64,000 nucleotides of DNA, taken from Verrucomicrobiia bacterium (GTDB lineage: Bacteria; Verrucomicrobiota; Verrucomicrobiia; Limisphaerales; CAIMTB01). Made by a program: the position numbers and the translations under genes. The notes beneath the pieces are model-generated. The model was not told where the DNA came from. It ran no database searches and saw nothing but the letters and a program-made list of their open reading frames with translations. This document shows, one piece after another, positions 15,467 to 34,817 of the stretch. The stretch covers positions 62,001 to 126,000 of the forward strand of contig JAHCBA010000011.1 of NCBI GenBank assembly GCA_019634625.1, written 5' to 3'. Position 1 is the stretch's first letter; the number at the start of each line of letters is the position of its first letter.

Positions 15467-18400
15467 CTACGGCACCCCGTTCACCCTGTAGAACCGGCGG
15501 GAATGGGTGTGGGGCTGCGTTTCGAGGACCTCCAGCATGCCCCCGAACACGTTGGTCGTGAGCATCGGGGTCCAGGAGATCAGGTCGTCGCCGACCGCCA
15601 CCTCGTAGGTTCCGGGGCCGACGGTCTGCTGGATCAGCAGTCCGCCGTCCACGAGACTCAGAACGGCGCCGTTCACAGGGGCGAGGGCCAGCGAGTAGGA
15701 GAGCTGGATGCGGCCCTGGGCGCCTTCGACGCCATCGACCATGACGAGATAATCCTCGCCGGCATGGGCGCCGAACATCACTTCGCTGTGGGTGGCGGGC
15801 GGGATCGGCACAGCCAGCGCGACTTCCTGAAGGGTGGTGCGGTTGGTGTACACCCCGAGGACGGTGGGAATTTCGCTGCCTTCGGTGGAAATGGCCATCC
15901 AGCCGGAGCTGGACGCCCGGAACCGGAACCACAAGGTCGCGCCGCCGAGTTCGCCCAGCACCATCGGATCGTCCGGAGCCCGGTGGGCGCCGCCGTTGGA
16001 AGTCTCACGTGAACCCGGGATTCCCGGGGCGACCGAGGTGAAGGGGGCACCGCCCCCTCCGAAGAGGGCCCGCTGGGTGGTGGCCACCGGCTCGGGGAAC
16101 AGGTCCTCACGCTTGTCCCGGGCCGGAGCTTCGTCAGGGCGCGACACGACCTCGAGCAGCACGTCCCGGGTGCGGACGGACTGGCCTTGTGCGGTGGTCA
16201 CCAGGACGGCGTAGAGGCCCGCCTGGACGCGGGTCACCGTGGGCAGGACCAGGACGGGCTGGGTGCCGCCCGGCACGGGAGTGCCGTTGAAGTACCACTG
16301 ATAGCGCAGCCCTTCGCCCTCGACGGGCGCGGACAAAGTCCAGGCCGCACCCTCCTGAACGGTGCCGCCCTGCAAGGGTGCGACCAGACGGGGCAGGGGA
16401 GCGAGCCCCATGGTCCAGTCCCAACTGAACACGACCGTTCCGGCGGCCCCCGCATAACCGTCCACGACGATGTGGTAATCGACATCCCGAACGGCATCGA
16501 ACTCGACCCGGCTGGCCAGGAATCCGGCGCCATCGTCGTCGCTGGCCACCTCGACCAGGGTCCCCAGGCTGGAGCCGGTGTACACGGACAACAGGGTGTC
16601 GAAGCTGGAACCGGCGGTGGAAAAGATCATCCGCCCGTTGTCCGGGGCGCGCCAGGTGAGCCAGACCGAACGGCCGCCCCGCTTTCCGGCGTGGGCGGGT
16701 TCTCCGGCCTCCCGGCCGGCATCGATCGTGGTGGTCGTTCCCGATCCCTGGGCTCCTGACAGGCGGCCTCGATTCACGAAGGCATCGGCAAACGGCAGCG
16801 TGGGCAGCGCCAGGCTGAGGGTGGCGGGCTGGCTCTCCACGAGGCCCGCGCGGTTGGCCACCACCACGCTGTACGCCCCGGCGTCCTCGACCGTCACGCC
16901 CTCCAACCGCAGCGTGGGACCGCGGGCATCGCGAATGTTTTGACCGTTCTTTCTCCACTGGTACACCAGCGGCCCTTCCCCTTCGGCGACCACCGAGAAT
17001 TCAACCGTCGCCCCGGTCGAAACGCGCTGGCTGAGGGGCCCGGTGACCAGCAGGGGGAGCGGGGTGAAGATCGCCTGCGCGCCGGCCCGCAGCTCGAAGG
17101 TCGTGCCAAGACGATCCCGCAGACTTGGGAAGGCGACCGTTCCGCCGTCGAGCACCACGGTGGCGTCGGCGATCCGCACGAACTGCCCGGTGGAGATGAA
17201 GGCATTCAGGGCGATCAACAACTGGCCTCCCTCGAACTCCCGCGCGTTGGGCAGCAGGATGCGGCCCTCCGACGTCGCCCGCAGCCAGGGGGTGTAGGCC
17301 ACATCGGGTCCGCGCCACAAGCCCGTCGCCCCGCTGAAATCCACCACCCCGCCTCCCGAGGCCGAGACCCGGAACGGCCCCACCATCCGCGTCAGTCCGC
17401 TGAGATCGATGCGTCCCGCGGTCTCGGCATGGAGGTCGAAGTAGCCCGTCCTCGAGAACTGCACGGACTTCAGGCCCCTCGCATCGAGGATGGAGCCCGG
17501 ATCGCGGGCCCGCCAGGTCATGCCCGAGCACCGCAACTCGGCGACCTTCGGCAAACGCAACACGCCGCCCTCCCAGACGGACAGATCGCTGTCGTCCACG
17601 ACGGTCAACGCCTCGAACGACGGCTCGGCCCCCCGCACATGCACGGTGCTCCGCGTCAGCGCCGCCAACTGGGCCGTCGGAATGCCGTCCCGCGCATCGA
17701 GGTCCAGCGTTCCCCGGTCAAACTCGGTGATGCCCGGGATGCGGATCCTGCCCCGGGTGCTGGTCTTGAGGGAATGCCGGTAAGCGAAGCCCTCGCTGGT
17801 CCAGCGTCCGCGGGCGCCGCTCAGCTCCACCAGGCCGCCCGAACTGGCGGTCACGCGCAGCGGGCCGAGCAGGGCTTCCACGCTCCCCAGGTTCACCTGG
17901 CCGTCGGTGGTCGCGTTGATGTCCATGTACGTGGCGTTGGCGAAGGTCAATTGCCTCACCGCACCCCCATCGATCATCGAACCCGGATCCTGCGCCCGCC
18001 AGGTCTGGCCTCCGGCCCGAACCGAGGTCACCCCCGGCAACGCCAGCACCCCGCCGCCGAGGGCGGTCAGGTCGCTGCCATCGACATTGCCCAGCGCTTC
18101 GAACCCGCCCTTGAACCCGCGCACCACCAGCGCGCCCTGGGTCAACTCCTGCAGCTTCCCGGTCGGGATGGCCTCGAGGGAATCCAGGTCGATGGTCCCC
18201 CGATCGAACCCGCTCAACCCGGGCACCAGAATGCGCCCGCCGGTGTCGGCCTTGAGCATCTGGCGGTAAGCGAATCCTTCGCTGGTCCACCGTCCCTCCA
18301 GGGACTGAAGGTCCACCAGACCGCCGCCGCTGGCGGTAATGCGAATGGGACCGCGCACTTCCTTGAGCCCTGACAGGATCGCCCGGCCCTGGGACGAGAC

Positions 18401-19486
18401 GTTGATGTCGAAGTACGAGGCGGTGGCAAATGCCACGGTCCCGAGTGCCGAGACGTCCAGAACCGAGCCGGGATCCTGAACCCGCCAGTTCGCCGAGGTC
18501 ATCCGCACTCCGGTCACCCCGCCCAGGCTCAGGGTCGCACCCGCCGCCACGGTGATATCCGTGTCGTCCACCCGGGTCAGCGACGCAAAAGCCCCCTTGG
18601 TCCCGCGGACTGTGAGGGTGCCGCCGGTCAACGCGGTCCATTGCCGGGTTGGCAACGCGTCGTCCGAGTCGATGTCCACCTCGCCCCGGTCGAACTCGGT
18701 CAGCAGCGGCACCAGAATCGTCCCCCGGTTCCGGGCCCGCAGCAGGGAGCGGTAGGCGAAGCCCTCGCTGCTCCAACGGCCCCGCAGGCTGCTCAGGTCC
18801 ACCGTTCCACCTTCCGTCGCCGTGACCCGCATGGGTCCGAGGAGGCCGGGAAACTTCGGCAGATCGATGCGCCCTTCGCCAGTGGCCTGGACCTCAAAAT
18901 ACCCGTTGGCCGTGAGGTGGACTTCGCCCAGGGATGGCGCCTCGATCCAGGAGCCGATGCCGTGCGCCCACCAGCGTGAGATCGCGCTCCGCACCTGGGC
19001 CACGTTGGAAAGCCGCGCCTGGGCACCGTCGCGAACGGTCAGGTCCCCTCCCCATTCCACGGCCGCGCCGCCCCCCAGCAGGACCGTCTTCGCCCCCCGC
19101 ACCACCAGGGAAGCTCCCTGGGACACGGTGAAGTTCCCCCCGATCCGCGATTCCCCCTCGGTCAGCGTCAGCGTGCCGCCCGACACCCGCACACCGTCCG
19201 GCGCCTGAATCCTCAGCACCGTGACATTACCGCTCCGGATCTCGACGGGTCCGGTGCGCGGGGGGATCTCCACGTCATCGGCTGTTCCCGGCACCGCGCC
19301 GCCGCTCCAGTTGGCGGCGTCGTTCCAAGCCAGGGAGGCGCCCCGGCCAATCCAGGTCACCGTGGCCGCCCACGCAGCCGGCGCGGTTCCAAGCCAGCAG
19401 GCCAGACCCAGAAACAGGCGCCAGGGAACCCTGCGACCGGGGTCGGGTCCGATCGCACCTGGGGATTCGCATCGCGGCGGGGTCAT
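15467..19486 (-). CDS. Giant secreted protein: 162-aa repeats, Ig-like domains, C-terminal RFYR module
   Basis: 1339 aa. The signal region ends AAWAATVTW (about residue 41). Residues 45-215 form a beta-helix-like start (WNDAANWSGGAVPGTADDVEIP). Three full and one partial copies of a ~162-residue module follow (about 216-810); each has LRGRWSSEGFAYR, a FDRGxxDLD motif, a VRG motif and a WRxxDPGSxxD motif. Next come an Ig-like domain (YQWRKNGQNI), a pre-peptidase-like module (GGRSVWLTWRAPDNG), a second Ig-like domain (RYQWYFNGTPV), another beta module, and a final ~50-residue module ending RRFYRVNGVP. No enzyme motif. The start overlaps the upstream gene stop by 4 bases (ATGA). Probably a surface or matrix protein. 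Confidence 0.87.
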   Translation of the reverse strand: MTPPRCESPGAIGPDPGRRVPWRLFLGLACWLGTAPAAWAATVTWIGRGASLAWNDAANWSGGAVPGTADDVEIPPRTGPVEIRSGNVTVLRIQAPDGVRVSGGTLTLTEGESRIGGNFTVSQGASLVVRGAKTVLLGGGAAVEWGGDLTVRDGAQARLSNVAQVRSAISRWWAHGIGSWIEAPSLGEVHLTANGYFEVQATGEGRIDLPKFPGLLGPMRVTATEGGTVDLSSLRGRWSSEGFAYRSLLRARNRGTILVPLLTEFDRGEVDIDSDDALPTRQWTALTGGTLTVRGTKGAFASLTRVDDTDITVAAGATLSLGGVTGVRMTSANWRVQDPGSVLDVSALGTVAFATASYFDINVSSQGRAILSGLKEVRGPIRITASGGGLVDLQSLEGRWTSEGFAYRQMLKADTGGRILVPGLSGFDRGTIDLDSLEAIPTGKLQELTQGALVVRGFKGGFEALGNVDGSDLTALGGGVLALPGVTSVRAGGQTWRAQDPGSMIDGGAVRQLTFANATYMDINATTDGQVNLGSVEALLGPLRVTASSGGLVELSGARGRWTSEGFAYRHSLKTSTRGRIRIPGITEFDRGTLDLDARDGIPTAQLAALTRSTVHVRGAEPSFEALTVVDDSDLSVWEGGVLRLPKVAELRCSGMTWRARDPGSILDARGLKSVQFSRTGYFDLHAETAGRIDLSGLTRMVGPFRVSASGGGVVDFSGATGLWRGPDVAYTPWLRATSEGRILLPNAREFEGGQLLIALNAFISTGQFVRIADATVVLDGGTVAFPSLRDRLGTTFELRAGAQAIFTPLPLLVTGPLSQRVSTGATVEFSVVAEGEGPLVYQWRKNGQNIRDARGPTLRLEGVTVEDAGAYSVVVANRAGLVESQPATLSLALPTLPFADAFVNRGRLSGAQGSGTTTTIDAGREAGEPAHAGKRGGRSVWLTWRAPDNGRMIFSTAGSSFDTLLSVYTGSSLGTLVEVASDDDGAGFLASRVEFDAVRDVDYHIVVDGYAGAAGTVVFSWDWTMGLAPLPRLVAPLQGGTVQEGAAWTLSAPVEGEGLRYQWYFNGTPVPGGTQPVLVLPTVTRVQAGLYAVLVTTAQGQSVRTRDVLLEVVSRPDEAPARDKREDLFPEPVATTQRALFGGGGAPFTSVAPGIPGSRETSNGGAHRAPDDPMVLGELGGATLWFRFRASSSGWMAISTEGSEIPTVLGVYTNRTTLQEVALAVPIPPATHSEVMFGAHAGEDYLVMVDGVEGAQGRIQLSYSLALAPVNGAVLSLVDGGLLIQQTVGPGTYEVAVGDDLISWTPMLTTNVFGGMLEVLETQPHTHSRRFYRVNGVP

Positions 19487-21420
19487 GGCACACCTCGAAT
19501 CCAGTAGAAGCGGCGGGGCCGGTCGGAGGCGCCGGCGTCGAAGAATCGCAGCACCCCGCCGGTGACATTGGTCGTCGTGACCGGGGTCAGCCGGCTCATC
19601 GCGTCGCCGCGCAGGATTTCATAGGTTCCCGGGGGCACGATCATTTCGAGACTGAACCCGGCGGGGGACAAGCCCATGACGGGGGGCCGCACCTCGGCGA
19701 GTTGGACCGAGTAGGCGAGCCGCACCGGGCCGCGGGCGCCGTTCACGCCATCGATCATCACCAGGTAGTCCTCGCCGGCATGGGCACCGAACACCACTTC
19801 GGCATGCGACCGCGGCGGCACCGGCCGGCTCTCCGTGACGACGCTCAGGGCGAACCGGTTGGTGTACACGCCGAGAACCGCCGGGATGACGCTGCCCTCG
19901 GTGCTCAGGTGCATCCAGCCGGTTGCCATGGCCCGGAACCGGAACCACAGCGAGGCGCCCCCCACCTCGCCAAAGATGAGCGGATCCTCCGGCGACCGCG
20001 TCGCTCCCTCATTCGTGGTATCCCGCCAGCCTGGCAACCCGGGCGCCACGGAGGTGAAGCCGCCCCCTCCGGCCCCATGGAGGCTGGCCCCCCCGTTCAG
20101 GGGATCATCGAAAAGGTCCTCGAACTTGTCGCGGGCCGGGGCTGCCGGACCGGACACCACCTCAATGAGCGCCCATGGGGATTCGACCACCTGACCCGCG
20201 CTGTTGGCCACGCGGACGGAGTACTGACCGGCCTGGGCCGAGGTCACACTCTGGGCCGTCAGCAGGGCATCCCCTTCGCCCTCGATGGGTTCCCCGTTGA
20301 ACAGCCACTGGAACTGCAGTCCTTCGCCCTCGGCGACCACGGCGAGGTGAAGCGTGCCTCCCGAGACCACGATCTCCGACTCCGGGGCGGCCACGATCCG
20401 CGGCAGCGGCGGCGCGCCCGGTTCCAACTCCCAGCTCAGCACCACGCTGCCTTCCGCACCGGCAAAGCCGTCCACCGCGACGTGATAGTCCGTTCCCGCG
20501 ACGGCATTGAAGCGCACCACACTGGTCAGGTAGGAGCCGCCGTCATCGTTGGCCGCCACTTCGATCAAGCTGCCGGGCGTGCTTCCCGTGTACACCGCCA
20601 GCACCGTGTCGAAGGTCGAACCCGCAGTCGCGAATGTGGCCACCCCGCTGGCCGGGGCACGCCAGGTGATCCACACGGATCGGCCCCCGCGTTTGCCGGC
20701 GTGACGCGGCTCGCCACTGGCTCCCTCCCAGGTGGCGCCACGGTTGTTCCCGCGTCCCACGCCCGTGGCGTCCCCGATCAAGCCGCGATCGGCGAAGGCA
20801 TCGGCGAAGGGCAGTTCCGGCACGTCGATTTCGAGCACCACCGATCGGCTTTCCAGGGTCCCGTCCGGCGTGGACGCCAGCACGGTGTACCGTCCGCCGT
20901 CCGCGAGCCGCACGTTGGGGATCTCGAGGACCGGCTGGTTGGCGCCCGGGACGTCATTCCCGTTCACCCGCCACACGTAGCGGATGGAGTCCGAACCCTG
21001 GGCTTCCGCCTCGAACCGGACCGGGCCTCCCACCACGGCCCGCGCGTCGGCCGGTTGCCGTGCCCAATAGAGGAGTCGGTCCACCGCGGGTGACACCAGG
21101 GCGGGCTCGCTCAACACCGAGCCAAACGCGTCGGTCACTCGCACCCGGTACACGCCAAACTGGTCCTCACGGATGGCGGGCAGGAGCAGTTGATCCTCCG
21201 TGGCGCCCTCGACCGTCTCGCCCTCCAACAACCAGGCGAACCGCAAAAATCCGCTTCCCTGGGCCCCGACCCGCAGTCGCACGGCCTCGCCGATTCCGGC
21301 TTCGGTCCCGACCGGCTGCACGGTGATGATCGGCGGGGGCATCTCCTCGTCGGCGCGCCCGGGCCAGAGCCCTGGCAGCCCGCAGGCCAACAGCACGGCA
21401 GCCCAACGCCACTTTCCCAT
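19483..21420 (-). CDS. Secreted Ig-like protein, partner of the 1339-aa protein
   Basis: 645 aa from ATG 21420, giving signal peptide MGKWRWAAVLLACGLPGLW. Order: two Ig-like domains (FAWLLEGETVEG, YVWRVNGNDVPG; about 30-205), a pre-peptidase-like module (GGRSVWITWRAPASGVATF, about 225-345), a third Ig-like domain (FQWLFNGEPIEG), a beta module (GGASLWFRFRAMATG) and a C-terminal module ending RRFYWIRGVP. The second half is closely related to the 1339-aa protein, so the pair probably arose by duplication. The 5' region is itself a 138-bp tandem duplication that copies the start codon and ten signal-peptide codons in frame, so ATG 21558 is an alternative start. Stop and next start overlap (ATGA). 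Confidence 0.85.
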   Translation of the reverse strand: MGKWRWAAVLLACGLPGLWPGRADEEMPPPIITVQPVGTEAGIGEAVRLRVGAQGSGFLRFAWLLEGETVEGATEDQLLLPAIREDQFGVYRVRVTDAFGSVLSEPALVSPAVDRLLYWARQPADARAVVGGPVRFEAEAQGSDSIRYVWRVNGNDVPGANQPVLEIPNVRLADGGRYTVLASTPDGTLESRSVVLEIDVPELPFADAFADRGLIGDATGVGRGNNRGATWEGASGEPRHAGKRGGRSVWITWRAPASGVATFATAGSTFDTVLAVYTGSTPGSLIEVAANDDGGSYLTSVVRFNAVAGTDYHVAVDGFAGAEGSVVLSWELEPGAPPLPRIVAAPESEIVVSGGTLHLAVVAEGEGLQFQWLFNGEPIEGEGDALLTAQSVTSAQAGQYSVRVANSAGQVVESPWALIEVVSGPAAPARDKFEDLFDDPLNGGASLHGAGGGGFTSVAPGLPGWRDTTNEGATRSPEDPLIFGEVGGASLWFRFRAMATGWMHLSTEGSVIPAVLGVYTNRFALSVVTESRPVPPRSHAEVVFGAHAGEDYLVMIDGVNGARGPVRLAYSVQLAEVRPPVMGLSPAGFSLEMIVPPGTYEILRGDAMSRLTPVTTTNVTGGVLRFFDAGASDRPRRFYWIRGVP

Positions 21421-21652
21421 CAGGTGCGAACGTCGTGGCTCGGGCTGCGGACAACCGGGTCCGCGCGTCCCGCAGCCTGGAAGGGGCCCAGGCGGACAGG
21501 GCTGTCCGCGCTCCAGCCCGCCCGCCAACAGCACGGCAGCCCAACGCCACCTTCCCATCAGGTGCGAACGTCGTGGCTCGGGCTGCGGACAACCGGGTCC
21601 GCGCGTCCCGCAGCCTGACTGGGGCCCGGGCGGACAGGGCTGTCCGCGCTCC
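21386..21652 (-). repeat. 138-bp tandem duplication over the gene start, each copy with a perfect hairpin
   Basis: Copy A 21386-21523 and copy B 21524-21652 are nearly identical, offset exactly 138 bp (46 codons). Each contains the initiation codon, the first codons of the signal peptide, and the perfect inverted repeat GCGGACAG-GG-CTGTCCGC (21492-21509 and 21630-21647). The rest of the 343-bp gap (21653-21763) holds only a GGGGGC/ACCCCCC hairpin near 21661 and nothing gene-like. Confidence 0.9.
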
Positions 21653-21763
21653 GGAGGAAGGGGGGCACCCCCCGACTTCATCCTCCGAGGTGCATTCCGT
21701 TCAAGGGGCCTCATCCCGGGCCCTAAGCCCGCCAGCGCCGTCGCCTCCCGTGCCGGGCCCGCC

Positions 21764-24700
21764 TCAGAAATCGAAGCGCAGCGATGTGGTGAAGGTTCGG
21801 TCACGGTACGGCTCCCGGTAGCTGTTCAAAGGGTTCAACCGGTAATCCTGGTCGGTGAGGTTGAGGACCCCGGCGCGAATCTCGACGTTCCGCCGGTCGA
21901 AACGCCAGCCCGCATGCAGGTTCACATGCCAGAAATCGTCCCCCGGCCGGTCCGGGCTGTACCCGCGGTTCGACTGCTGCGTCCACACCCCCTCGGCCAG
22001 CGCGAAGAACCCGGTCGGATGGGTGTAGCGCCCCTCGATCCGCACCTGGTGCAGCAGCGACTCCACCTCCCGCCCGGATCCCGGGAACGCCGGCAGCGCG
22101 TCCACCAGCGTGGCCTCGCTCATCCGGTACCCCGCCCCCACCGACACGTCCCGGCCCAGCAGTTGATGGACCGTCACCGTCACCGAGTCCTCATCATAAC
22201 GCAGTCCCTGACGCAGTGTCCCCACCGTCGGGGCCGCCCCGAACGGCAGTTCGCGCACCCCGAGGTTCCGGTCGGCCCGGGATTCGAGGCGTTCCCAGCC
22301 GACGGTCAGATAGGTGCGGGTCGGGAAGCGCTGCTCGAAGCTCACCCCCCACGTCTCGAACGCCTGTCCGGCCACCGACCCCGCCGCCGCCTCGGGAATC
22401 AATCCGCGGTACGCCTGGTTGAACCCGGCAATCTGGGTCGGTTCCAACCGGAAACTCTGATCGAAGCTCACCCCGCCCAGCGATCGCGTGTAGGCCCCCC
22501 GCAACACCCCGTCCCGCCACGGGGTCACGGTCACCCCGGCCTTCGGAGAGACGCGGTCGAGGGTTTCCTCGCCCTCGATGACCGGCGCGATCCGGTAGTT
22601 CACCGGCTGCCGCAACCGGTCGTAGCTCAATCCCGCCGACAACCGCAGCCAGTCGAGCACCTGCCAGTGTTCGTACCCGTAGGCGGTGAACCGCAGCAGA
22701 TCCGCCTCGAGGTCCTGGCTCAACCCCGGCACCGGCACCCCGGCCGCGTTGCCCGGTCCCAGTTCGGTCCGTGTCTCGAAGGATCCCGTCTGCTGCCGCA
22801 ACCCGACGATCACCGTGTGCGCCTCGTGCTGCCAGATGTGCTGACCCTCGAAGGACCACGTCACGAACTCGTTTTCGTACCGGAGCGGGGTGGGGACGGT
22901 GACCTGCCGGAACGGGCTGCCATCCGGATTGCGGAACAGCACCGAACTGGTCGCCAGCGGATCGTCCATGGTGTAGCGGTCGTGAAGCCGGGAGACGAGC
23001 AACAGGGTGTCGGAACCCGGGGCCCAGGCGCGATGCCAGCCCACCAGGACCTGCGGTTCCTGCCGGTCCGTCGCCCGCAACCGCGGGTTGGCGTCCGCCG
23101 GGTCGTAGTACGGCGCCACGTCTCCGAATTCGGCATCGGAATAGATCAGTTGCAGGAACGCTCCATCCCGGGCGCCCACCTGCTGCTTGGCCTGGAGCGA
23201 GAGGGTCAGTTGCTCGGCGTCGTCATTGATGCGCTGCCCGTTGGCGGAGCGGTACATGACGTCGAGGGCGTATCCGAACGACCCGAAGGTTCCGAACTGC
23301 GATCCGGTCTGCTGCCAGTCGCCGTTGCTCCAATAATCCGTCCTGCCCGCCAACCCGGGTCCGTCTCGCTCGAACAACCGCGAATACTCGTTCGGCGCCA
23401 GAGTGGTCGAAAGCCGGCCCGCTCCCACCGGCGCGAGGAGATTGGCCACCAGGAACTCGCTGAACCACGCGGTCTCGTACCGCAGATCCACCTGGTTGGC
23501 GTCGCGCCGCGCGTTGTAGCTGTCGGCCAGGAACTGGTGCGCCGAGAAACTCAGGTAATCGTCCTCGACCGCCCGCGTCGCCGCCCGTTCCCCGTACGCC
23601 TCCAGACCCGCATCCCGGTAGAGCGCGGCGAGGTTCGCGCCCCGGACAGAACGGTCCTGGTCGAGACCCAGACGCGACCGATAGACCGCCCGGTTGTCGT
23701 TCAGGTCCAGGGACCGTTCGAGGTCGGCCACCGCCTCGTTCACCCGGTTCTCCCGCTGGCGCATCAACGCCGAATACAGCCACGGCGTTGGATCGCCCGG
23801 ATCCAGTTCCCTCGCCCGATCGAGTTCATGCTCCGCCCTGCCCGCCAGCGCCGGGGTCCGGAAGGCGCGGGAATCGGACAACGCCTTCCCGAGGTAACTC
23901 CGCAACGCCGCCCGCTGCGGTTCCAGCGCCGCCGCCGCCTGCAAATCCTCCCGCCCGGCCTCGAGTTCGCCCCGCCGGATGCGGACCAGCCCGCGCCCGA
24001 GCCAGGCGTTCCCCAGCGCGGGATCCAGCCGCAACGCCTCTTCGAACGCCGCTTCCGCCTCCCGCACCCGATGGCGCGCCGCCGCCAGGAACCCGCGCAG
24101 GGTGTGGGCTTCGGCGTGTTCCGGCACCAGGGCCAGCCCGCGCTCGAGCGCCTGTTCCGCCGCCCGCGTGTTCCCCAGCACAAACTCCAGCTCGGCCAGC
24201 CGCACCCATGCCAACCCGAAGTCCGGCGATACGTCCGTCGCCGCCCGCGCCAGGTCGCGCGCCGCCGCCAGCCGGGCCCCGGCCTGACGCGCATACGAGG
24301 CTGCCAGCAGTTCGGTCGCCAGCGGCGTCTCGTGATCCGGTCCGTCGGTCGATCCCCGCCGGACGGTGTCGATCAACCGCCGATGCGCGACTGCCAGCCG
24401 GCCCCACGGATCGTCCTCATCCTCCGGCTCCATTCCTTCCAGCACCGACTCCGCCTCCTCGACCGATCCAACAGCCAGCAGCAGGGCCGCGAGAAACACC
24501 TTCTCGTCAGGTCGTTCCGGCCACCGGTCCGCGGGGTACCCGGCCATGGCCTGCGGCAGGTTGCCGCGCCGGTACGCCGCCCAGGCCGCCGCCAGTTCGG
24601 GCACAGGCACCCCGGCTTCCCCCCATCCAAGATCCGCCGGATCCAGGATCGCCGGGTAATACAACGCCCACTGCACGGCCGACCAGTCGCCCGCCTCGAT

Positions 24701-25252
24701 CCTCGCGAGGCGCCGCGGTGCCATGCCGTCGCCCGCCTCGGCCACATCGCCGCTCCCGATGGACAACGACCGACCTTCGGCGTCGGTGAGATCCACCTCG
24801 CCGTCGAAGAGCGTCAGGCGCATCCCGCCTGCCTCCCGCACCTCGAAGGCGAATTCCGTGCCGCGAACGACCGCGCTCACCCCGCCGCCCTCGATGGTGA
24901 CCTGACCGGCCTGCCCCTGATGAAAGAAGGAAATGATCCCGCGCAGGATCTGCAACAGCGTCCCCTGCGGCCGGTCCGCGAACCGCAGCATGGACATCTC
25001 CCGCACCGGCATGATCGAGCGGTCCCGCAATTGCAGCGTGGCCCGGCTCCGCGGCCCGGTGCGGAGCATGTCGCCCCCGTACAGCACCTGGTTGGTCGCC
25101 GCGGTGTACCACGTTGCCGTGCCGGCAGGCTGGAACTGCACCTGGCCACTGAGGGCAACGACGGTCGCCTGGGCCACCCGTCCGGAATCCGCGGCCTCCG
25201 CCGGAACGGCGAACACCAGGAACAAACAGGCCCACCACCAACAACAACGCAT
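21764..25252 (-). CDS. FecR-TPR-outer-membrane beta-barrel fusion protein
   Basis: 1162 aa. Signal peptide MRCCWWWACLFLVFAVPAEA. A FecR domain follows (about 25-165: VALSGQVQFQPAGTATW, RTGPRSRATLQLRDRSIM, VRGTEFAFEVREAGGMRLTLFDGEVDL). Then come TPR repeats (about 190-570: AEQALERGLALVPEHAEAHT, AEAAFEEALRLDPALGNAWL). The last ~560 residues are a TonB-receptor/porin-like beta barrel with alternating strands and a terminal phenylalanine (TTSLRFDF), the outer-membrane assembly signal. ATG 25252 was chosen; GTG 25261 (overlapping the upstream stop, GGAAGG 7 bases before) is an equally good start. It lies 5 bp after the CHASE2/cyclase gene. Role inferred: periplasmic sensing coupled to an outer-membrane channel or secretion scaffold. 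Confidence 0.88.
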   Translation of the reverse strand: MRCCWWWACLFLVFAVPAEAADSGRVAQATVVALSGQVQFQPAGTATWYTAATNQVLYGGDMLRTGPRSRATLQLRDRSIMPVREMSMLRFADRPQGTLLQILRGIISFFHQGQAGQVTIEGGGVSAVVRGTEFAFEVREAGGMRLTLFDGEVDLTDAEGRSLSIGSGDVAEAGDGMAPRRLARIEAGDWSAVQWALYYPAILDPADLGWGEAGVPVPELAAAWAAYRRGNLPQAMAGYPADRWPERPDEKVFLAALLLAVGSVEEAESVLEGMEPEDEDDPWGRLAVAHRRLIDTVRRGSTDGPDHETPLATELLAASYARQAGARLAAARDLARAATDVSPDFGLAWVRLAELEFVLGNTRAAEQALERGLALVPEHAEAHTLRGFLAAARHRVREAEAAFEEALRLDPALGNAWLGRGLVRIRRGELEAGREDLQAAAALEPQRAALRSYLGKALSDSRAFRTPALAGRAEHELDRARELDPGDPTPWLYSALMRQRENRVNEAVADLERSLDLNDNRAVYRSRLGLDQDRSVRGANLAALYRDAGLEAYGERAATRAVEDDYLSFSAHQFLADSYNARRDANQVDLRYETAWFSEFLVANLLAPVGAGRLSTTLAPNEYSRLFERDGPGLAGRTDYWSNGDWQQTGSQFGTFGSFGYALDVMYRSANGQRINDDAEQLTLSLQAKQQVGARDGAFLQLIYSDAEFGDVAPYYDPADANPRLRATDRQEPQVLVGWHRAWAPGSDTLLLVSRLHDRYTMDDPLATSSVLFRNPDGSPFRQVTVPTPLRYENEFVTWSFEGQHIWQHEAHTVIVGLRQQTGSFETRTELGPGNAAGVPVPGLSQDLEADLLRFTAYGYEHWQVLDWLRLSAGLSYDRLRQPVNYRIAPVIEGEETLDRVSPKAGVTVTPWRDGVLRGAYTRSLGGVSFDQSFRLEPTQIAGFNQAYRGLIPEAAAGSVAGQAFETWGVSFEQRFPTRTYLTVGWERLESRADRNLGVRELPFGAAPTVGTLRQGLRYDEDSVTVTVHQLLGRDVSVGAGYRMSEATLVDALPAFPGSGREVESLLHQVRIEGRYTHPTGFFALAEGVWTQQSNRGYSPDRPGDDFWHVNLHAGWRFDRRNVEIRAGVLNLTDQDYRLNPLNSYREPYRDRTFTTSLRFDF

Positions 25253-25257
25253 GCGGT

Positions 25258-27108
25258 TCACTTCGTGCCTTCCGTTCGGAGAGACGCCCGGCGCCCGGTC
25301 ACCTGGGCCCAGGCCACCACCGACCAGCCCAGCGCCAGGGGGAGCTGCACCGCGCTGAACGCCAGCCACGGGAACCAGATCTGCGTCACCCATACGCTGG
25401 TCATGGCCAGCAGGCCCACCACAGTGCCCGCCCCCACCGCCAGGATCAAGGCGGGCAATGGACGCAGGAAACACAGCCCGAACCCCGCCACCCCGCCCAG
25501 CACCGTCACCAGGCTGAGCTGCATCCACGGCGTTGGCAGCCGCAGCCAGTCGCCCCGCATCCGGTTCAGGGTGGCCGTGGCCACAATCTCCACCCCGGCC
25601 GATCGCCGCTCGCTCTTCGAGAACCGGTTGTACGGCGTCAGAAAATCGTCCGTCCCCTTCCCGCCCGTGAACGGCAGGTCATACACCGCCCCCACGAACA
25701 CGACGCGGTTCGAGAGACTCGTCGGGTCGATCCGCCCTCCCAAGACGGCGGAATACGGGTGCGACGGCACCGTTCCCGCCGGCCCGTAGTAGTTCAGCCA
25801 CGGGTTCCGCGGGGCCACGCCGCCCCGCTCCCCGAGCACCTGCATCACCGCGCTCGAAAGAGATTCCTTCAGCTCGACCTCCCGCCCTGGACGCCGAATC
25901 GTCCGGTCGGCCCCGGCCCGTTCGACCAAACCCCAGACCGCCACCTCCTCGATTTCCGGGATCGGGCCCTGGGTCCGGTGCCCCAGAAAAATCTCAGGCC
26001 GTTCCTCCGCCTGAAGCACCCCCGCGACCACCACCTTTCCGAAGCGCTTCGCCGCCTCGATGAACGCCTGGTCCTGCCCGGGATCCTCCGCCGGAAGATC
26101 AAACAACACGTCGAACACCACACACCGCGCCCCCATCTCCGCCAGGCGATCAATCAGCGCCGCATGCACCCGGCGGTCCCATTGCTGCAACCAGGGCTGC
26201 CCCAGCTCGTCGTGCGATTCCGAATCCATCCGCACAATCGCCGCCTCCGTCGGCACCTCGGTCTTCCGAAACAGGTAACCCCAGTCGTAACTCGCCTCCA
26301 CGATCCCGGGCACCATCACGCCCGCCCATCCCACCAACACCGAGACCGCCGCCCCAATCCACGCCAGACGCCGGCTCACCCGCCGTCCCACCAGCCACCT
26401 CCGCCAGCCCGTCGCCTCCTCCTCCTCCGGCTCCTCCGCCACCGCCACCCGCTTGACCTTGTCCGAATCGGCCGGCGCCTCGAGCGGCGCCCGGCCGGGA
26501 TCGGTGACCTCACAGATCTCGATCGGTTCGGCCACCCCCTTCAACTGATAGTGGCCATGGCTCGCCCACTCGACCCGGTCCACCTGCGGAATCGGCGTCC
26601 CCTTCAAACCCGCCCGCGCGTTCTCGAAGGCGAACCGCGTCAACAGCACCTGACCCCCCTGCGCCAGCGACATCACCCGGGCGCACTTGTCCACCTCCAG
26701 CCCGTGCAGATCATGGATTCCCCCCTGCGCGTTGGCCTCGACCGTCACCTCCCCCGCATGCACCCCGACCCGGTCCTGCACCGGGCGTCCCGCCTCCCGG
26801 TTCCACGCGTGCAGTCTGGCCTGAAGCCGGAGCGAGAAGGCCACCGCATCCGAAGGACGCCGGAACGCCAGGAAGAAGGAATCCCCCGAGGTGCTCACCT
26901 CCAGCCCGCCCTGATACTCCCGCAACAGGTCCCGGACCAGCCGGTGATGCTCCAGGATCAGCCGCAACGCCTCGCTGTTCCCCAACTCCTCCTTCAGCCG
27001 CGTGGAACCGACCAGATCGGTAAAGACCAGCGTCATCACCTCCTGCCGCTCGGGGCCGTGCGAGGTGTTGGTCGGATCGGGTTCGGGAACCTGGGGGGGC
27101 CGGCTCAT
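25258..27108 (-). CDS. Adenylate/guanylate cyclase domain followed by CHASE2 sensor
   Basis: 616 aa from ATG 27108 (GTG 27126 possible). Residues about 22-190 are a class III nucleotide cyclase: TLVFTDLVGSTRL with the first metal Asp, STSGDSFFLAF with the second, VGVHAGEV, and DLHGLEVDKCARV where the usual Asn is Asp. The substrate-selecting Lys is Ser, so ATP or GTP specificity cannot be predicted and activity may be weak. An acidic linker (EEPEEEEATG) and a membrane helix (WIGAAVSVLVGWAGVMV) precede an extracytoplasmic CHASE2 domain (about 265-510: AIVRMDSESHDELGQPWLQQWDRR, GARCVVFDVLFDLP, NYYGPAGT, VVFVGAVYDL) and three C-terminal membrane helices. The usual order is CHASE2 first, cyclase last. 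First gene of the four-gene block. Confidence 0.88.
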   Translation of the reverse strand: MSRPPQVPEPDPTNTSHGPERQEVMTLVFTDLVGSTRLKEELGNSEALRLILEHHRLVRDLLREYQGGLEVSTSGDSFFLAFRRPSDAVAFSLRLQARLHAWNREAGRPVQDRVGVHAGEVTVEANAQGGIHDLHGLEVDKCARVMSLAQGGQVLLTRFAFENARAGLKGTPIPQVDRVEWASHGHYQLKGVAEPIEICEVTDPGRAPLEAPADSDKVKRVAVAEEPEEEEATGWRRWLVGRRVSRRLAWIGAAVSVLVGWAGVMVPGIVEASYDWGYLFRKTEVPTEAAIVRMDSESHDELGQPWLQQWDRRVHAALIDRLAEMGARCVVFDVLFDLPAEDPGQDQAFIEAAKRFGKVVVAGVLQAEERPEIFLGHRTQGPIPEIEEVAVWGLVERAGADRTIRRPGREVELKESLSSAVMQVLGERGGVAPRNPWLNYYGPAGTVPSHPYSAVLGGRIDPTSLSNRVVFVGAVYDLPFTGGKGTDDFLTPYNRFSKSERRSAGVEIVATATLNRMRGDWLRLPTPWMQLSLVTVLGGVAGFGLCFLRPLPALILAVGAGTVVGLLAMTSVWVTQIWFPWLAFSAVQLPLALGWSVVAWAQVTGRRASLRTEGTK

Positions 27109-27433
27109 GTCCGGTCGAACGAGCACGCTGCCGTCAGGAACAATTCCCGCCGCGCCGCTCCGTCACTGCCCTAAACCCTCGCGGTGTCGTCGCCGATTAC
27201 GCAAGCGCCCATTTCCAGGTTGGCCCGATCAGGGGTCCGCATTCGGAGGGCCGAGTTCCACGAGGCCGCAAACGAGTGGTGCATCGGGATGAGGACATCA
27301 TCTCACGCGAAGACGCCAGGACGCAAAGTGGACGCCTGAGGAGATGGAATGGGGCATCGCCACTCCCCATTCCCCACTCCCCATTCCCCCCGGCTTGAGC
27401 CCCTCCTTCCGCATCGGCAGGGTGAGCCCCTCG
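27109..27433. other. Divergent intergenic region with repeats
   Basis: 325 bp between the cyclase and glycosyltransferase genes. It holds a half copy of the 74-bp palindrome (27242-27296), three degenerate octamers ACGCGAAG/ACGCCAGG/ACGCAAAG (27305-27328), an inverted GAATGGGG/CCCCATTC pair, and two 14-mers ACTCCCCATTCCCC (27362-27389). No promoter could be assigned. Confidence 0.7.
27242..27296 (-). repeat. Half copy of the 74-bp palindromic repeat
   Basis: TTCGGAGGGCCGAGTTCCAC then GAGGCCGCAAACGAGTGG and a short ATGAGGACATC; the far arm is lost. Confidence 0.75.
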
Positions 27434-31554: not shown

Positions 31555-34170
31555 TCAGGAGGGCGCGCCGGGGAGCGGAATGATCCGGTAGAATCGCAGG
31601 TTCGGCTGGGGCGCAGTGGTGTCTTCGACCTCGATGCGTCCCTGGGCATCCGCCGTGGCGGGATCGCCGAGGGGAAGCCAGGGACCGTTCACGTTATCCG
31701 ACCACTGGACCTGGTAGGCGACGCCGGGGATGCCGGCGAAACGGATCAGGAACCCATCTTCAGTCGGGACCACGCGGGCGGGATTGTCGCCGGCGGCCTC
31801 CGCATCGCGCACGTTGACGAGGACGGTGCCGACGGCCGTTTCGCCGCGGCCATCGGAGAGCAGGTAGGTGAATGAGTCGTCGCCGGAAAAATCGGCTGGG
31901 GGCGTGTAGGTGACCACGCCATCGGAGAGGGCCACGGTTCCGCCCGCGGTGCTGGTGGCATCAACGGCCGTGATCGAGAGCGCGTCTCCGTCGGGATCGG
32001 TGTCGTTGACGAGGAGTTTGGCGACAAAGACGGCCGACGGCGCGCCTTCGTCGGTCTGGAGCGTGTCGGTGCCTGCGGTGGGAACCCCATTGGCGAGAAG
32101 GGTCAGCGCATAGTCTTCGACCTCGCCGTCGGAGGCTTCGCCGAGGGGACTGAGGCCGGCCACGGAACTGAACCGGAACCGGGCGAAGGTGACGCCGCTG
32201 ACGACGCCGGACGGGACGCTGACGGCCAGGACGTGGGGATTGCCGGCCTCGGACAGGGCGAGGTCGGTGAAGACCTGTTCACCGGCGTCGTTCCAGTCGC
32301 CGTCCCGATTCCAGTCGATCCAGGCGTTGAGCGTGCCGGAGCCGGTCACGGTCACGGTCAGATTGACCGCCAGCCCCCCGGGAAAGGAGACGGGGAGCGA
32401 GACACCGTCCTCGTCCGCGGTGTCGGCGAGGTCGTCGCCGGTCGCCGTGGCATCGGGTTGTCCGTCCGGTTCGGCATCCAGGGGCACGGTTCCGAGGTGG
32501 AGGGTGGCGCCTCCGGGAGGGATGCGATGACGGGCGCCGTCGTGGGCAAGGAGCACGGGATAACTCGAGGCGAAGCCGGACTGGGCGGCGGTGGGGGCGT
32601 CGCCGAAATCGAGACCCAGTAGATGGAAGGTGTCCCCGGGCCCGGCAGCGGGCGCGGAATTCCCCGCGAGGTCGGTGGCGGTTCCCGCTGCCAGGGAGAG
32701 CCCAAGCGTGCCGACCCCGGACAACCCCGAGAGCGTGACCGTCCGTGCGGCGGCTCCGGAGCCGGTGACCTCGACGGTGGTGGCGGCGGCGGATCCGGTG
32801 GTGTTGAGGGTGATGTTCCCGGTAGCGAGACTGACGGAGTGCGCGCCACCGTAGGAAATTGTGTAAGTCACCGGACCCCCGCCGGCCGTGGTCTGGGAAA
32901 GGGACGGGGCGCCGATGAGGACCGTGGGCGGGAGGGTGTCGATGGTGACGAAAAGGGCGTCGGACGGGACGCTGGTGCCGGCGCCGGTGGTGGCGGTGGC
33001 GGTGATGAGATGGGTGCCGTCGGAAAGGGTGGAGGTGGTGACGGACCAGTTGCCGCTGCCGTCGGCGGGGCCGCTGCCCACTGTGCCGTGGACGCTGCTC
33101 GAGACGGTGATCGTGGCACCGGCGGGTCCGGTACCAATGAACGTCGGGGTGTTGTCCGCGGTAATGTTGTCGGTCGAGGACGCGCCGGTATCGCTGGCGG
33201 CGGCGAGGTCGGGGGTGGAGGGAGGATTGGGCGGCGGGGGGCGGTAAATGGCGACCATCTGAAAGGTCGCGGAAGTCACCGGGGCGACGATTTGCGTGCG
33301 GCCCGTCCCGTCGAGGTTGTAGCGCAACAGGCCCTGGCCTGCCGTTGGGGGGCTCCCGTCGGCGACGTAGAGGTGGTTGTTGACGGTGTCCACGGTCACG
33401 CCGCTGGGTTGGGCGAAGTGGGCGGCGTCGGAGGCGAGGGTGACGATGCTCGAGCCGTCGAGATTGGCGGACTTGAGGGCGTCGAGGGAGGACGTGCCAC
33501 TGCCCTGGGTGAAGTAGAGCTTGCCACCGGCGACCGCCACGTCGGAGTAGGTCGCCGAGGCGGTGGGGGCAATGACCACCGTGCGGCCTGTCCCGTCGAG
33601 GTTGTAGCGCAGAATGCCGAGGGTGTCGGCGAGGTAGAGGTGGCTGTTGGCGAGGTCGAGCGCGATGCCGTTGGGCTGGGTGAAGTTGCCGGAGTCCGAG
33701 GCGAGGGTGACGATCCCTGAGCCATCGAGATTGGCGGACTTGAGGGCATCGAGAGAGCTCGTACCGCTGCCTTGGGTGAAGTACAGCTTGCCGCCGCCGA
33801 CGGTCACGCCGTTGTAAAGGGCCGTGGCGGTAGGGGCGACGATCACGGTGCGGCCGGAGCCGTCGAGGTTGTAGCGTACGATCCCCGCGCCGGTGACCGA
33901 GGCATCGGCGACGTACACATGGCCGTTGGCGGCGTCGATGGCGAGGCCTCTGGGCTGGATGAAGTTGCCGGAATCGGAAGCGAGCGTGGTCAGGCTGGAG
34001 CCATCCAGATTGGCGGACTTGAGGGCATCCAGGGATGCGGTGCCGCTGGCCTGGGTGAAGTAGAGCGTGGCGGCGGCAGCGGGTGTCGCCTGGCTCATCG
34101 CCAACAGGAACGCGATGGCGAACAGGAGAAGCCCCGTGGGAGCGCGTTTCTCCGGATCAGGCGGAGTCAT
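31555..34170 (-). CDS. Secreted propeller/Ig/GEVED surface protein
   Basis: 871 aa from ATG 34170 (ATG 34194 possible). Signal peptide (LLLFAIAFLLAMSQATPAAAA). Residues about 35-310 are three near-identical ~93-aa beta-propeller repeats (LYFTQGSGTSSLDALKSANL, LYVADxS, RYNLDGTGRTxIVAP). After a Pro linker come a bacterial Ig-like domain (TPTFIGTGPAGATITVSS), a second sandwich, a GEVED domain (LDFGDAPTAAQSGF, NAWIDWNRDGDW, DGEVEDYAL), a cadherin-like Ig domain (TDEGAPSAVFVAKLLVNDTD, TYTPPADFSGDDSFTYLLSDG) and a C-terminal module (AYQVQWSDNVNGPW, LRFYRIIPLPG). No catalytic motif; probably an adhesin or matrix protein. It lies 28 bp upstream of the PEP-CTERM gene. Confidence 0.87.
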   Translation of the reverse strand: MTPPDPEKRAPTGLLLFAIAFLLAMSQATPAAAATLYFTQASGTASLDALKSANLDGSSLTTLASDSGNFIQPRGLAIDAANGHVYVADASVTGAGIVRYNLDGSGRTVIVAPTATALYNGVTVGGGKLYFTQGSGTSSLDALKSANLDGSGIVTLASDSGNFTQPNGIALDLANSHLYLADTLGILRYNLDGTGRTVVIAPTASATYSDVAVAGGKLYFTQGSGTSSLDALKSANLDGSSIVTLASDAAHFAQPSGVTVDTVNNHLYVADGSPPTAGQGLLRYNLDGTGRTQIVAPVTSATFQMVAIYRPPPPNPPSTPDLAAASDTGASSTDNITADNTPTFIGTGPAGATITVSSSVHGTVGSGPADGSGNWSVTTSTLSDGTHLITATATTGAGTSVPSDALFVTIDTLPPTVLIGAPSLSQTTAGGGPVTYTISYGGAHSVSLATGNITLNTTGSAAATTVEVTGSGAAARTVTLSGLSGVGTLGLSLAAGTATDLAGNSAPAAGPGDTFHLLGLDFGDAPTAAQSGFASSYPVLLAHDGARHRIPPGGATLHLGTVPLDAEPDGQPDATATGDDLADTADEDGVSLPVSFPGGLAVNLTVTVTGSGTLNAWIDWNRDGDWNDAGEQVFTDLALSEAGNPHVLAVSVPSGVVSGVTFARFRFSSVAGLSPLGEASDGEVEDYALTLLANGVPTAGTDTLQTDEGAPSAVFVAKLLVNDTDPDGDALSITAVDATSTAGGTVALSDGVVTYTPPADFSGDDSFTYLLSDGRGETAVGTVLVNVRDAEAAGDNPARVVPTEDGFLIRFAGIPGVAYQVQWSDNVNGPWLPLGDPATADAQGRIEVEDTTAPQPNLRFYRIIPLPGAPS

Positions 34171-34198
34171 GAGGTCGAAGGGAATCGAGGGCATGAAT

Positions 34199-34272
34199 TC
34201 GGAGGGCCGAGTTCCACGAGGCCGCAAGGGGGTGGTGCATGGCGTTGTGGACTCGCGGAGCTCGTCCCTCCG
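34199..34272 (-). repeat. Full copy of the 74-bp palindromic repeat
   Basis: TCGGAGGGCCGAGTTCCACG to GCGGAGCTCGTCCCTCCG, in the 128-bp gap between the tail-collar gene stop and the start of the propeller protein gene. Confidence 0.85.
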
Positions 34273-34298
34273 GATGAGGGGATGCGTCGAATACGGGA

Positions 34299-34817
34299 TC
34301 AGTTCCGCGACGGGAAGATGCCTTCCAGGGCGATGATGAAGGAGACGCACAGGAACGGAGACATGTTGTCATGGGGCTGGCTGCCGCCGGCCAGGCCGAT
34401 CATGGCGGGGTTCATGGTGCCGTCGGCGGGCTGATCCGAGTAGATGGGGGCGGCGCCGGAGACTTCTGTGGCGGGGAGATGGCCGGCCGGGGCGGCCTGG
34501 TCGGCGTTGCTGTGACAGCCCACCGAATGGTTGTGAGCGGGCATTTGGGAGGCCATCAGGGTCACAGACTCAGAGCCGCCGGATTCACCGAGGGTCCGTG
34601 GGGTGAGCCCGGGGCCATTGCCGGGATGCATCGGGAGGCGGCCGCGGAGATCCGGCAGGGCGAAGGTGGTACGGCCGTCGCCGCCGTAGGTGGTGCCCAG
34701 GAGGGAGAACAGGGCGGCATTCTGGGCGATGGGCAGGAGTTGACCGTCACAGAACGCCCAGCCTCGGGGCGCGAAGTTGCCGGCGAACATGCGGATCTCT
34801 CCGATGAGTTGTTCCAT
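34299..34817 (-). CDS. Phage tail-collar domain protein (MdpB/microcystin-dependent type)
   Basis: 172 aa. Typical tail-collar fold: EQLIGEIRMFAGNFAPRGWAFCDGQLLPI at the N-terminus, ALFSLLGTTYGGDGRTTFALPDLRGR, MPAHNHS in the middle and SPFLCVSFIIALEGIFP at the end. Length is as expected for stand-alone MdpB-like proteins (about 170-185 aa). In phages this domain sits in short tail fibres; here no other phage gene is nearby and no signal peptide is seen, so it is an isolated cellular homologue of unknown role. The 182 bp upstream (34818-34999) holds nothing recognisable. Confidence 0.9.
   Translation of the reverse strand: MEQLIGEIRMFAGNFAPRGWAFCDGQLLPIAQNAALFSLLGTTYGGDGRTTFALPDLRGRLPMHPGNGPGLTPRTLGESGGSESVTLMASQMPAHNHSVGCHSNADQAAPAGHLPATEVSGAAPIYSDQPADGTMNPAMIGLAGGSQPHDNMSPFLCVSFIIALEGIFPSRN

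Follow-up and report, generated by a model that had tools for sequence, protein, structure and literature searches.

The gene at positions 21764–25252 (minus strand) of the window, i.e. the whole stretch of 64,000 nucleotides analysed here, encodes a probable outer-membrane sensor of the type known from nitrogen-fixing rhizobia. Its neighbor codes for an inner-membrane enzyme, a putative cyclase with a CHASE2 domain, which is most likely switched on by this receptor. The comparison of receptor–CHASE2 pairs in related genomes suggests the FecR domain as the part of the receptor touching the enzyme. We consider it probable that the receptor operates as an NsrA-like sensor, with a plugless barrel sensing the outside, tetratricopeptide repeats (TPRs) relaying the change, and the FecR domain binding CHASE2, by which the cytoplasmic cyclase is switched to form cAMP or cGMP.

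The receptor ORF starts with ATG and encodes 1162 amino acids. The approximate signal peptide (residues 1–21, 25190–25252, hydrophobic stretch at residue 3, cleavage site read by eye) is followed by the FecR domain (residues 25–182, 24707–25180), a helical region including a TPR superhelix (residues 205–606, 23435–24640) and an outer-membrane β-barrel (residues 631–1162, 21767–23362), all on the minus strand. FecR (PF04773) was matched by Pfam at residues 62–153 with E = 5e-9, above the cut-off, and several TPR families matched as well, the best of them between residues 327 and 458. The match of TonB_dep_Rec_b-barrel to residues 705–934 (E = 1.9e-5, 25.2 bits) was just below the 27-bit cut-off. 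When 36 members of the family were scanned individually at E = 1e-3, FecR was found in all 36, the TonB-type barrel family in 34, and TPR_2 in 33. The C-terminal residue of the receptor is Phe, and the same holds for 71 of 74 full-length relatives (81 minus seven that were partial or contained X). In the 19-residue hydropathy profile only two peaks reach 1.3, at residue 3 (1.59) and at residue 252 (1.55), the latter falling within helix 248–260 of the helical region in the model. Hence a reading made earlier from the sequence only, which placed FecR, TPRs and a barrel ending in Phe on one exported chain having no membrane helix besides the signal peptide, is borne out by Pfam, AlphaFold2 and hydropathy; the protein appears to be an exported chain with no other convincing membrane helix. 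A chance ORF was ruled out by homology and conserved architecture.

The AlphaFold2 model of the receptor has pLDDT 89 and pTM 0.86. According to this model and to searches with Foldseek and VIA, the C-terminal half, which the earlier reading had proposed to check for being a barrel, is predicted to form one of about 22 long strands with the TonB-dependent-receptor fold. The model contains 26 strand segments beyond residue 630, of which 22 were counted as barrel, and the short ones at 768, 780, 834 and 839 were taken as loops. Foldseek matched the barrel to PqqU with E = 3.8e-16, and VIA matched it to TonB-dependent receptors with Z = 19–22 (Z = 19.8 for FecA, 1kmp); the VIA lists re-examine Foldseek matches, so that families not listed may still match. 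In the structure models the FecR domain is all-beta, and both Foldseek and VIA match it best to PupR (6ovk, 133 residues aligned with Z = 15.3). A second structure model, with the searches made from it, was based on 36 relatives picked by hand from 80 loci. In a library of viral structures all matches were partial, the best one being a SusC-like TonB receptor and the rest FecR or TPR proteins. The same check concerned a plug. Pfam matched no plug family in 36 members scanned at E = 1e-3, nor in eight scanned at E = 10, where weak matches may be discarded by the HMMER filters. In the model, helix 593–606 is followed by a 24-residue linker leading to strand 631.

In a profile–profile comparison by hhalign, rhizobial NsrA, said to have been named by Garnerone et al. 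in 2018, was aligned with the receptor over residues 21–1161 with probability 100 and E = 1.4e-48. The separate parts matched the NsrA profile with E = 2.2e-28 (FecR), 2.1e-16 (TPR) and 3e-14 (barrel), versus 0.15–0.45 for five barrel controls with shuffled columns. The pairwise identity is low, and plain BLASTP matched FecR and TPR and missed the barrel. NsrA of Sinorhizobium meliloti contains FecR and TPRs, its gene, annotated as nsrA, directly precedes cyaK, and eight aligned NsrA-like chains all end in Phe. A C-terminal barrel of NsrA is described in the available part of PMC7529298, where genetic data from S. meliloti show that both NsrA and CyaK are needed for signal perception. Among such receptors, NsrA is the only one known to be required for perceiving an outside signal that raises cAMP. 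The part of PMC9239204 available mentions both NsrA and FecR. These passages put NsrA upstream of CHASE2 cyclases and do not give the route by which the periplasm is crossed; the paper naming NsrA may say more. Judging from sequence, the FecR–TPR–barrel architecture is that of S. meliloti NsrA and hence not a new invention; a view of the protein as an odd fusion is not supported.

The two systems are alike in that NsrA and the window receptor are exported single chains with FecR, TPR, a C-terminal barrel and a terminal Phe, homologous by profile over nearly the full length, and in that the receptor gene adjoins a CHASE2 cyclase gene in both. They differ in phylum and in gene order: in the window the cyclase gene precedes the receptor gene, whereas nsrA precedes cyaK. 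Moreover, the catalytic domain of the window cyclase is N-terminal to CHASE2, and relatives of the window receptor are also wired to kinase outputs.

The partner gene (25258–27126, minus strand) lies upstream of the receptor gene at a distance of 5 bp and was overlooked in the sequence-only reading. Pfam and hydropathy yield a class III cyclase domain (residues 26–166, 26629–27051; Guanylate_cyc, PF00211, E = 2.6e-14), one transmembrane segment, a CHASE2 domain (residues 265–545, 25492–26334; PF05226, E = 7.6e-27) and three more transmembrane segments, with hydropathy peaks at 254, 536, 557 and 588. BLASTP matched it to the CHASE2 region of CyaK with E = 2e-18. Of the cyclase motifs, FTDLVGST at 35 and GDSFF at 81 are present, and EVDKCARV at 144 deviates, reading VDKCAR where class III cyclases usually have VNxAAR. 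The partner gene is the single CHASE2 match detected in the window genome, in which one full-length receptor was found among the best seven of 41 candidates that were scored. Since the neighbor of the receptor is an inner-membrane CHASE2 cyclase, the pathway likely spans both membranes; the suggestion that the protein acts wholly in the periplasm and outer membrane is thus not upheld.

By the strong matches listed, at least 53 of 97 genomes from the order contain places matching most of the receptor query, and at least 52 of these 53 genomes also hold CHASE2 among the matches listed. At least 53 of 101 receptor places, fragments included, have a CHASE2 place no more than 5 kb away. Conversely, a FecR place is found at 5 kb or less from at least 68 of 150 CHASE2 places, the FecR side of this count comprising 163 places (150 FecR rows and 13 receptor places). 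A set of 115 distinct receptors was formed by deduplicating the window receptor, 60 of the 101 receptor places with flanks, and 80 loci; a distinct receptor had to score at least 350 bits, and copies sharing the last 300 residues were counted once. CHASE2 is found within 1.5 kb of 66 of them (56 downstream, eight upstream, two on the opposite strand). For 56 of the receptors, each flank is 3 kb or longer; a CHASE2 gene lies within 1.5 kb in 33 of these and is missing from that range in 23, and for 18 of them the entire flank examined contains none. Some receptors lacking an adjacent CHASE2 may have a partner elsewhere in the genome or work in another way.

The outputs of CHASE2 partners in the relatives are cyclases, Ser/Thr kinases or histidine kinases. 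They were surveyed in 38 of 39 CHASE2 ORFs (L039, near L036, was omitted), some of them lying farther than 1.5 kb from the receptor gene. For the comparison of pairs by output, classes were assigned separately by regular expressions, which left 25 of the 66 partners unclassed. In a phylum sample of 288 genomes including that of the window, full-length receptor matches were found in the window genome and in G144, G347 and G364, with the best one or two candidates scored per genome; the list omits 80 genomes that gave no match, and in it the window genome is the sole member of its order. Outside the phylum, the search took in only plasmids. Of 369 contig relatives, 80 were examined, 79 of them titled as groups of Verrucomicrobiota and one as Pontiellaceae, which NCBI assigns to Kiritimatiellota, likewise within the PVC group; the taxon titles (e.g. 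Akkermansia) are those of the records.

For 65 adjacent pairs (the 66 within 1.5 kb minus one with a short CHASE2 alignment), distances between receptor parts were compared with CHASE2 distances. The Spearman correlation was 0.737 for FecR, 0.504 for the barrel and 0.404 for TPR. The correlation of FecR with other parts of its own chain did not exceed 0.568, below that of FecR with CHASE2, the bootstrap difference being positive in 99% of cases. The partial correlation with CHASE2 was 0.619 for FecR given TPR and barrel, 0.137 for the barrel and 0.018 for TPR. In the subset of 15 kinase pairs (FecR 0.561, barrel 0.426, TPR 0.171) the lead of FecR is less clear. A distance correlation is matched evolution, not contact, and we weighed an unlikely alternative, namely that FecR and CHASE2 co-evolve merely because pairs are inherited whole, and the true contact of CHASE2 is TPR or a third protein. 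Protein binding is common for TPRs, and TPR tops the nearest-neighbor agreement with CHASE2 (32/65 versus 28/65 for FecR). Further, when partners were swapped between paralogs within a genome (eight genomes with two pairs each, 16 pairs, only 255 different swaps possible), the observed value was reached in 4 of 1000 swaps for FecR, 4 of 1000 for the barrel and 194 of 1000 for TPR. The barrel result equals that of FecR; therefore this control shows that the pairs belong together and does not single out FecR as the contact. However, co-inheritance should affect every receptor part equally, and the partial correlation is high for FecR alone. Besides, FecR also occurs next to CHASE2 genes in ORFs that could not hold a full receptor, at 17 of the at least 68 FecR-flanked places, one of them being a split receptor. 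The contact between FecR and CHASE2, which we infer from these comparisons, is new and testable; in other respects the receptor is a variant of the NsrA kind.

In the pathway that we favor, surface loops of the plugless TonB-receptor-type barrel would detect something outside the cell, and the TPR superhelix would pass the resulting change in the barrel on to FecR, the N-terminal domain, located in the periplasm. This domain would then bind CHASE2 of the inner-membrane protein encoded just upstream and thereby switch the cytoplasmic cyclase of that protein, converting an outside signal into cAMP (or cGMP). Where relatives have the receptor coupled to CHASE2 proteins with kinase output, the result would be phosphorylation.

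It is rather improbable that the barrel is instead a plugless transporter or secretion pore whose TPRs recruit cargo in the manner of PgaA, CHASE2 merely sensing the state of the barrel. The combination of TPR and barrel is known from export porins, and the TPR region gives a weak match to the PgaA model of NCBIfam (17.3 bits, cut-off 366.65). The failure to find a plug in the receptor family is consistent with a pore, as are the two secreted Ig-like proteins encoded downstream in the window and the large neighbors with secreted-protein-like tails at several other loci that have no CHASE2 close by. On the other hand, a TonB-receptor-type barrel of about 22 strands is larger than export porins of the PgaA kind, and NsrA, the best homolog, works in signal perception. 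A FecR-type anti-sigma regulator relocated to the outer membrane and still governing an ECF sigma factor is very improbable: the FecR domain does have the fold of the PupR cell-surface signaling domain, but the FecR/PupR anti-sigma identity was rejected, as Pfam matched no anti-sigma domain in the receptor, hydropathy gave no inner-membrane helix, and Pfam found no sigma-factor domain in three neighboring proteins (the CHASE2 cyclase and the two Ig-like proteins) that would indicate an adjacent ECF sigma gene.

The proposed sensor can be compared with several known systems. It shares the FecR signaling fold and the TonB-receptor-type barrel fold with the Fec and Pup systems (FecA–FecR–FecI, PupB–PupR–PupI), but carries both folds on one chain and has no plug, inner-membrane anchor or anti-sigma domain. 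Its likely inner-membrane partner is CHASE2, which by analogy likely stands where the Fec system has its inner-membrane pair of FecR and sigma factor. According to the description in the available part of PMC9239204, a cluster in Campylobacterota likewise has a FecR outer-membrane protein beside a CHASE2 adenylate cyclase, with the TPR protein encoded by a separate gene. In the BiofilmReg operon of Burkholderia and relatives, compared by the description in the available part of PMC5192318, a FecR protein gene adjoins a CHASE2 sensor gene, but FecR is joined to LysM and the output is a histidine kinase. The same part of that paper, from 2016, calls what CHASE2 domains recognize unknown.

Tentatively, and as little short of an even call, FecR domains could be general periplasmic partners of CHASE2, anchored by a barrel (NsrA) or by LysM to peptidoglycan (BiofilmReg) or free, that signal the condition of the envelope or of an outside ligand to CHASE2 proteins whose outputs can be exchanged. 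The present receptor would then be the plugless, self-contained form, uniting in one chain a FecR-like domain and a FecA-like barrel, which the Fec system has as separate proteins. Verrucomicrobiota hold a set of receptor–CHASE2 pairs large and diverse enough to see that, of the receptor parts, FecR tracks CHASE2 most closely, ahead of barrel and TPRs. This tracking reduces an ill-defined transmembrane step to the question of whether two small domains bind each other, and points to a common rule behind several FecR–CHASE2 systems that were described separately.

The receptor is encoded by an ORF of 1162 residues (21764–25252, minus strand). Pfam places the FecR domain at residues 62–153, the best TPR matches between residues 327 and 458, and a weak match to the TonB-dependent-receptor barrel at residues 705–934; when 36 relatives were scanned singly, FecR was found in 36/36 and the barrel family in 34/36. 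The chain ends in Phe, a feature shared by 71 of the 74 retained full-length relatives, and hydropathy reveals no convincing membrane helix along the chain other than the signal peptide. The whole-receptor AlphaFold2 model, built from 75 sequences (pLDDT 89.3, pTM 0.86), is predicted to comprise a beta domain (27–182), helices up to residue 606, a 24-residue linker and 26 strand segments, of which 22 were counted as barrel strands. Foldseek search with this model gave TonB-dependent transporters as the best hits (PqqU, OprC, FpvA; E 3.8e-16 and weaker), and VIA-align gave Z of 19–22 across approximately residues 550–1162 in the 50 entries listed, among them FecA. No plug family is present among the Pfam matches of 36 receptor family members at E 1e-3 or of 8 members at E 10. 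The FecR part modelled by itself (pLDDT 89.4) is closest to the cell-surface signalling domain of PupR (Foldseek E 1e-5; VIA Z 15.3 over 133 residues), and a sequence-profile search gives putative anti-sigma factors as its best solved relatives (4m0n, E 7.5e-5). The FecR–TPR–barrel architecture proposed in the sequence-only reading is confirmed, and the structure prediction that this reading called for gives a barrel of about 22 strands of the TonB-dependent-receptor type.

Strong matches to the receptor (most of the query, about 35–54% identity) were found in at least 53 of 97 genomes of the order, with five or more copies in some of them. Across the phylum, 288 genomes were sampled and the best one or two candidates scored in each; full-length matches appeared in the window's own genome and three others. 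Among plasmids, the window receptor matched five Sinorhizobium megaplasmids and no other record, each through its FecR region (best E 1e-5); the two inspected encode full FecR–TPR proteins of about 1200 aa. Search from one of these led to the annotated nsrA of S. meliloti, directly followed by cyaK. NsrA has FecR at 66–160, TPRs and Phe as the last residue. Comparison of the profile of 75 receptor sequences with that of eight NsrA-like proteins aligned positions 21–1161 at 20% identity, with a probability of 100 and an E of 1.4e-48. By part, the values were 2.2e-28 for FecR, 2.1e-16 for TPR and 3e-14 for the barrel, with controls at 0.15–0.45 (column-shuffled barrel, n = 5) and 0.46 (FecR vs barrel). 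BLASTP of the single proteins matched TPR (4e-13) and FecR (1e-8), with no convincing match in the barrel. Membership of the receptor in the NsrA kind, although in a different phylum, is well supported, and NsrA is a known precedent that the sequence-only reading did not mention. NsrA-like genes of S. terangae (locus L174, 6971–10588) and S. chiapasense (L173, 6971–10558) each lie downstream of an ORF resembling glutamine synthetase. No cyclase-like ORF is evident by eye in the ORF lists just after either gene, and these are perhaps NsrA-like receptors without an adjoining partner.

The sequence-only picture lacked an inner-membrane partner: a CHASE2 cyclase gene (25258–27126, minus strand) ends 5 bases upstream of the receptor gene. 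Its class III cyclase domain precedes CHASE2, an inverted architecture, and hydrophobic segments are located at residues 254, 536, 557 and 588. Its CHASE2 domain is akin to that of CyaK (BLASTP 2e-18). No second CHASE2 match was detected in the 6.74-Mb genome, where a single full-length receptor was found among the best 7 of 41 candidates scored; the genome also has four cyclic-nucleotide-binding and three class III cyclase matches. Related partners at two other receptor loci, L033 and L071, combine both outputs in a single protein, with a cyclase motif at the N-terminus and a kinase motif at the C-terminus. Since the L033 partner, 52% identical to that of the window, has this additional kinase motif, the window partner may be a cyclase–CHASE2 form that arose by loss of the kinase.

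The receptor gene is followed on the minus strand by genes for two large Ig-like-domain proteins (15467–21804), which both end in a similar tail, RRFYxxxGVP. A 138-bp tandem duplication (21376–21651, 95% identical) spans what is probably the start of the first of these genes, with its signal-peptide region (candidate start 21420). At several other loci, proteins encoded close to the receptor have tails of this type. Such a tail is also present in the window ORF 31555–34350, and therefore the link between tailed proteins and the receptor may be meaningless. A short repeat dispersed in this genome (15282–15451, 27228–27296, 30625–30767 and 34184–34273; both orientations, about 62–99% alike) may be a REP-like element.

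A CHASE2 gene lies within 1.5 kb of 66 of 115 distinct receptors: downstream in 56 cases, as in S. meliloti, upstream in 8, as in the window, and on the opposite strand in 2. For the 56 receptors flanked on each side by 3 kb or more, CHASE2 was found within 1.5 kb in 33, anywhere in the fetched flank in 38, and not in the fetched flank in 18. Partner outputs are swapped among the relatives: 38 scanned CHASE2 proteins matched cyclase (20), protein kinase (14) and histidine kinase (7) families, multiple matches being possible. At least 68 of the 150 CHASE2 places listed in the 97 genomes have a FecR place within 5 kb; in at least 17 of these, a split receptor among them, the ORF with FecR is under 1000 aa and cannot hold the complete receptor. 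The remaining 82 have no FecR within 5 kb among the matches listed.

Distance matrices were compared across 65 adjacent receptor–CHASE2 pairs. Spearman correlation with CHASE2 distances was 0.737 for FecR, 0.504 for the barrel and 0.404 for TPR; partial correlations given the other parts were 0.619, 0.137 and 0.018, respectively. With sliding segments of 100 residues, the values were 0.61, 0.73 and 0.69 for starts at 25, 75 and 125, and 0.33–0.47 for every later start. No other part of the receptor chain correlates with FecR as strongly as CHASE2 does (highest value 0.568; the bootstrap difference exceeded zero in 99%), and the maximum Pearson correlation for FecR in random permutations was 0.195 vs the observed 0.765. 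The values for FecR, TPR and barrel were 0.797, 0.434 and 0.489 with cyclase partners (27 pairs), 0.561, 0.171 and 0.426 with kinase partners (15 pairs), and 0.735, 0.391 and 0.473 with one pair per genome (n = 57). Partner swaps inside eight two-pair genomes reached the observed value in 4/1000 for FecR, 4/1000 for the barrel and 194/1000 for TPR; the receptor–CHASE2 pairs belong together, the barrel equalling FecR in this control. Nearest-neighbor agreement with CHASE2 does not single out FecR either (FecR 28/65, TPR 32/65, barrel 25/65). FecR is the part that tracks CHASE2 distances best, a correlation of distances being no proof of contact.

Perception of a plant signal in S. meliloti is described as requiring both NsrA and the CHASE2 cyclase CyaK, with the ribosomal protein uL2 proposed as the signal (PMC7529298; PMC13001267). 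In Burkholderia and relatives, LysM-FecR is reported to adjoin a CHASE2 histidine kinase, and Pseudomonas aeruginosa is reported to have a related pair in which LysM is truncated (PMC5192318); in Campylobacterota, a FecR outer-membrane protein is reported with CHASE2 cyclases (PMC9239204). In these last three groups the FecR protein differs in build from the window receptor. In the E. coli Fec system, an interaction of the FecR domain with the periplasmic N-terminus of FecA is reported (PMC5498481); in the window, barrel and FecR are on one chain. Given the FecR–CHASE2 correlation and the occurrence of FecR proteins beside CHASE2 elsewhere, recognition of FecR by CHASE2 is the simplest common account. 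FecR would be the element recognized by CHASE2, and the barrel, TPR or LysM part would determine what FecR reports.
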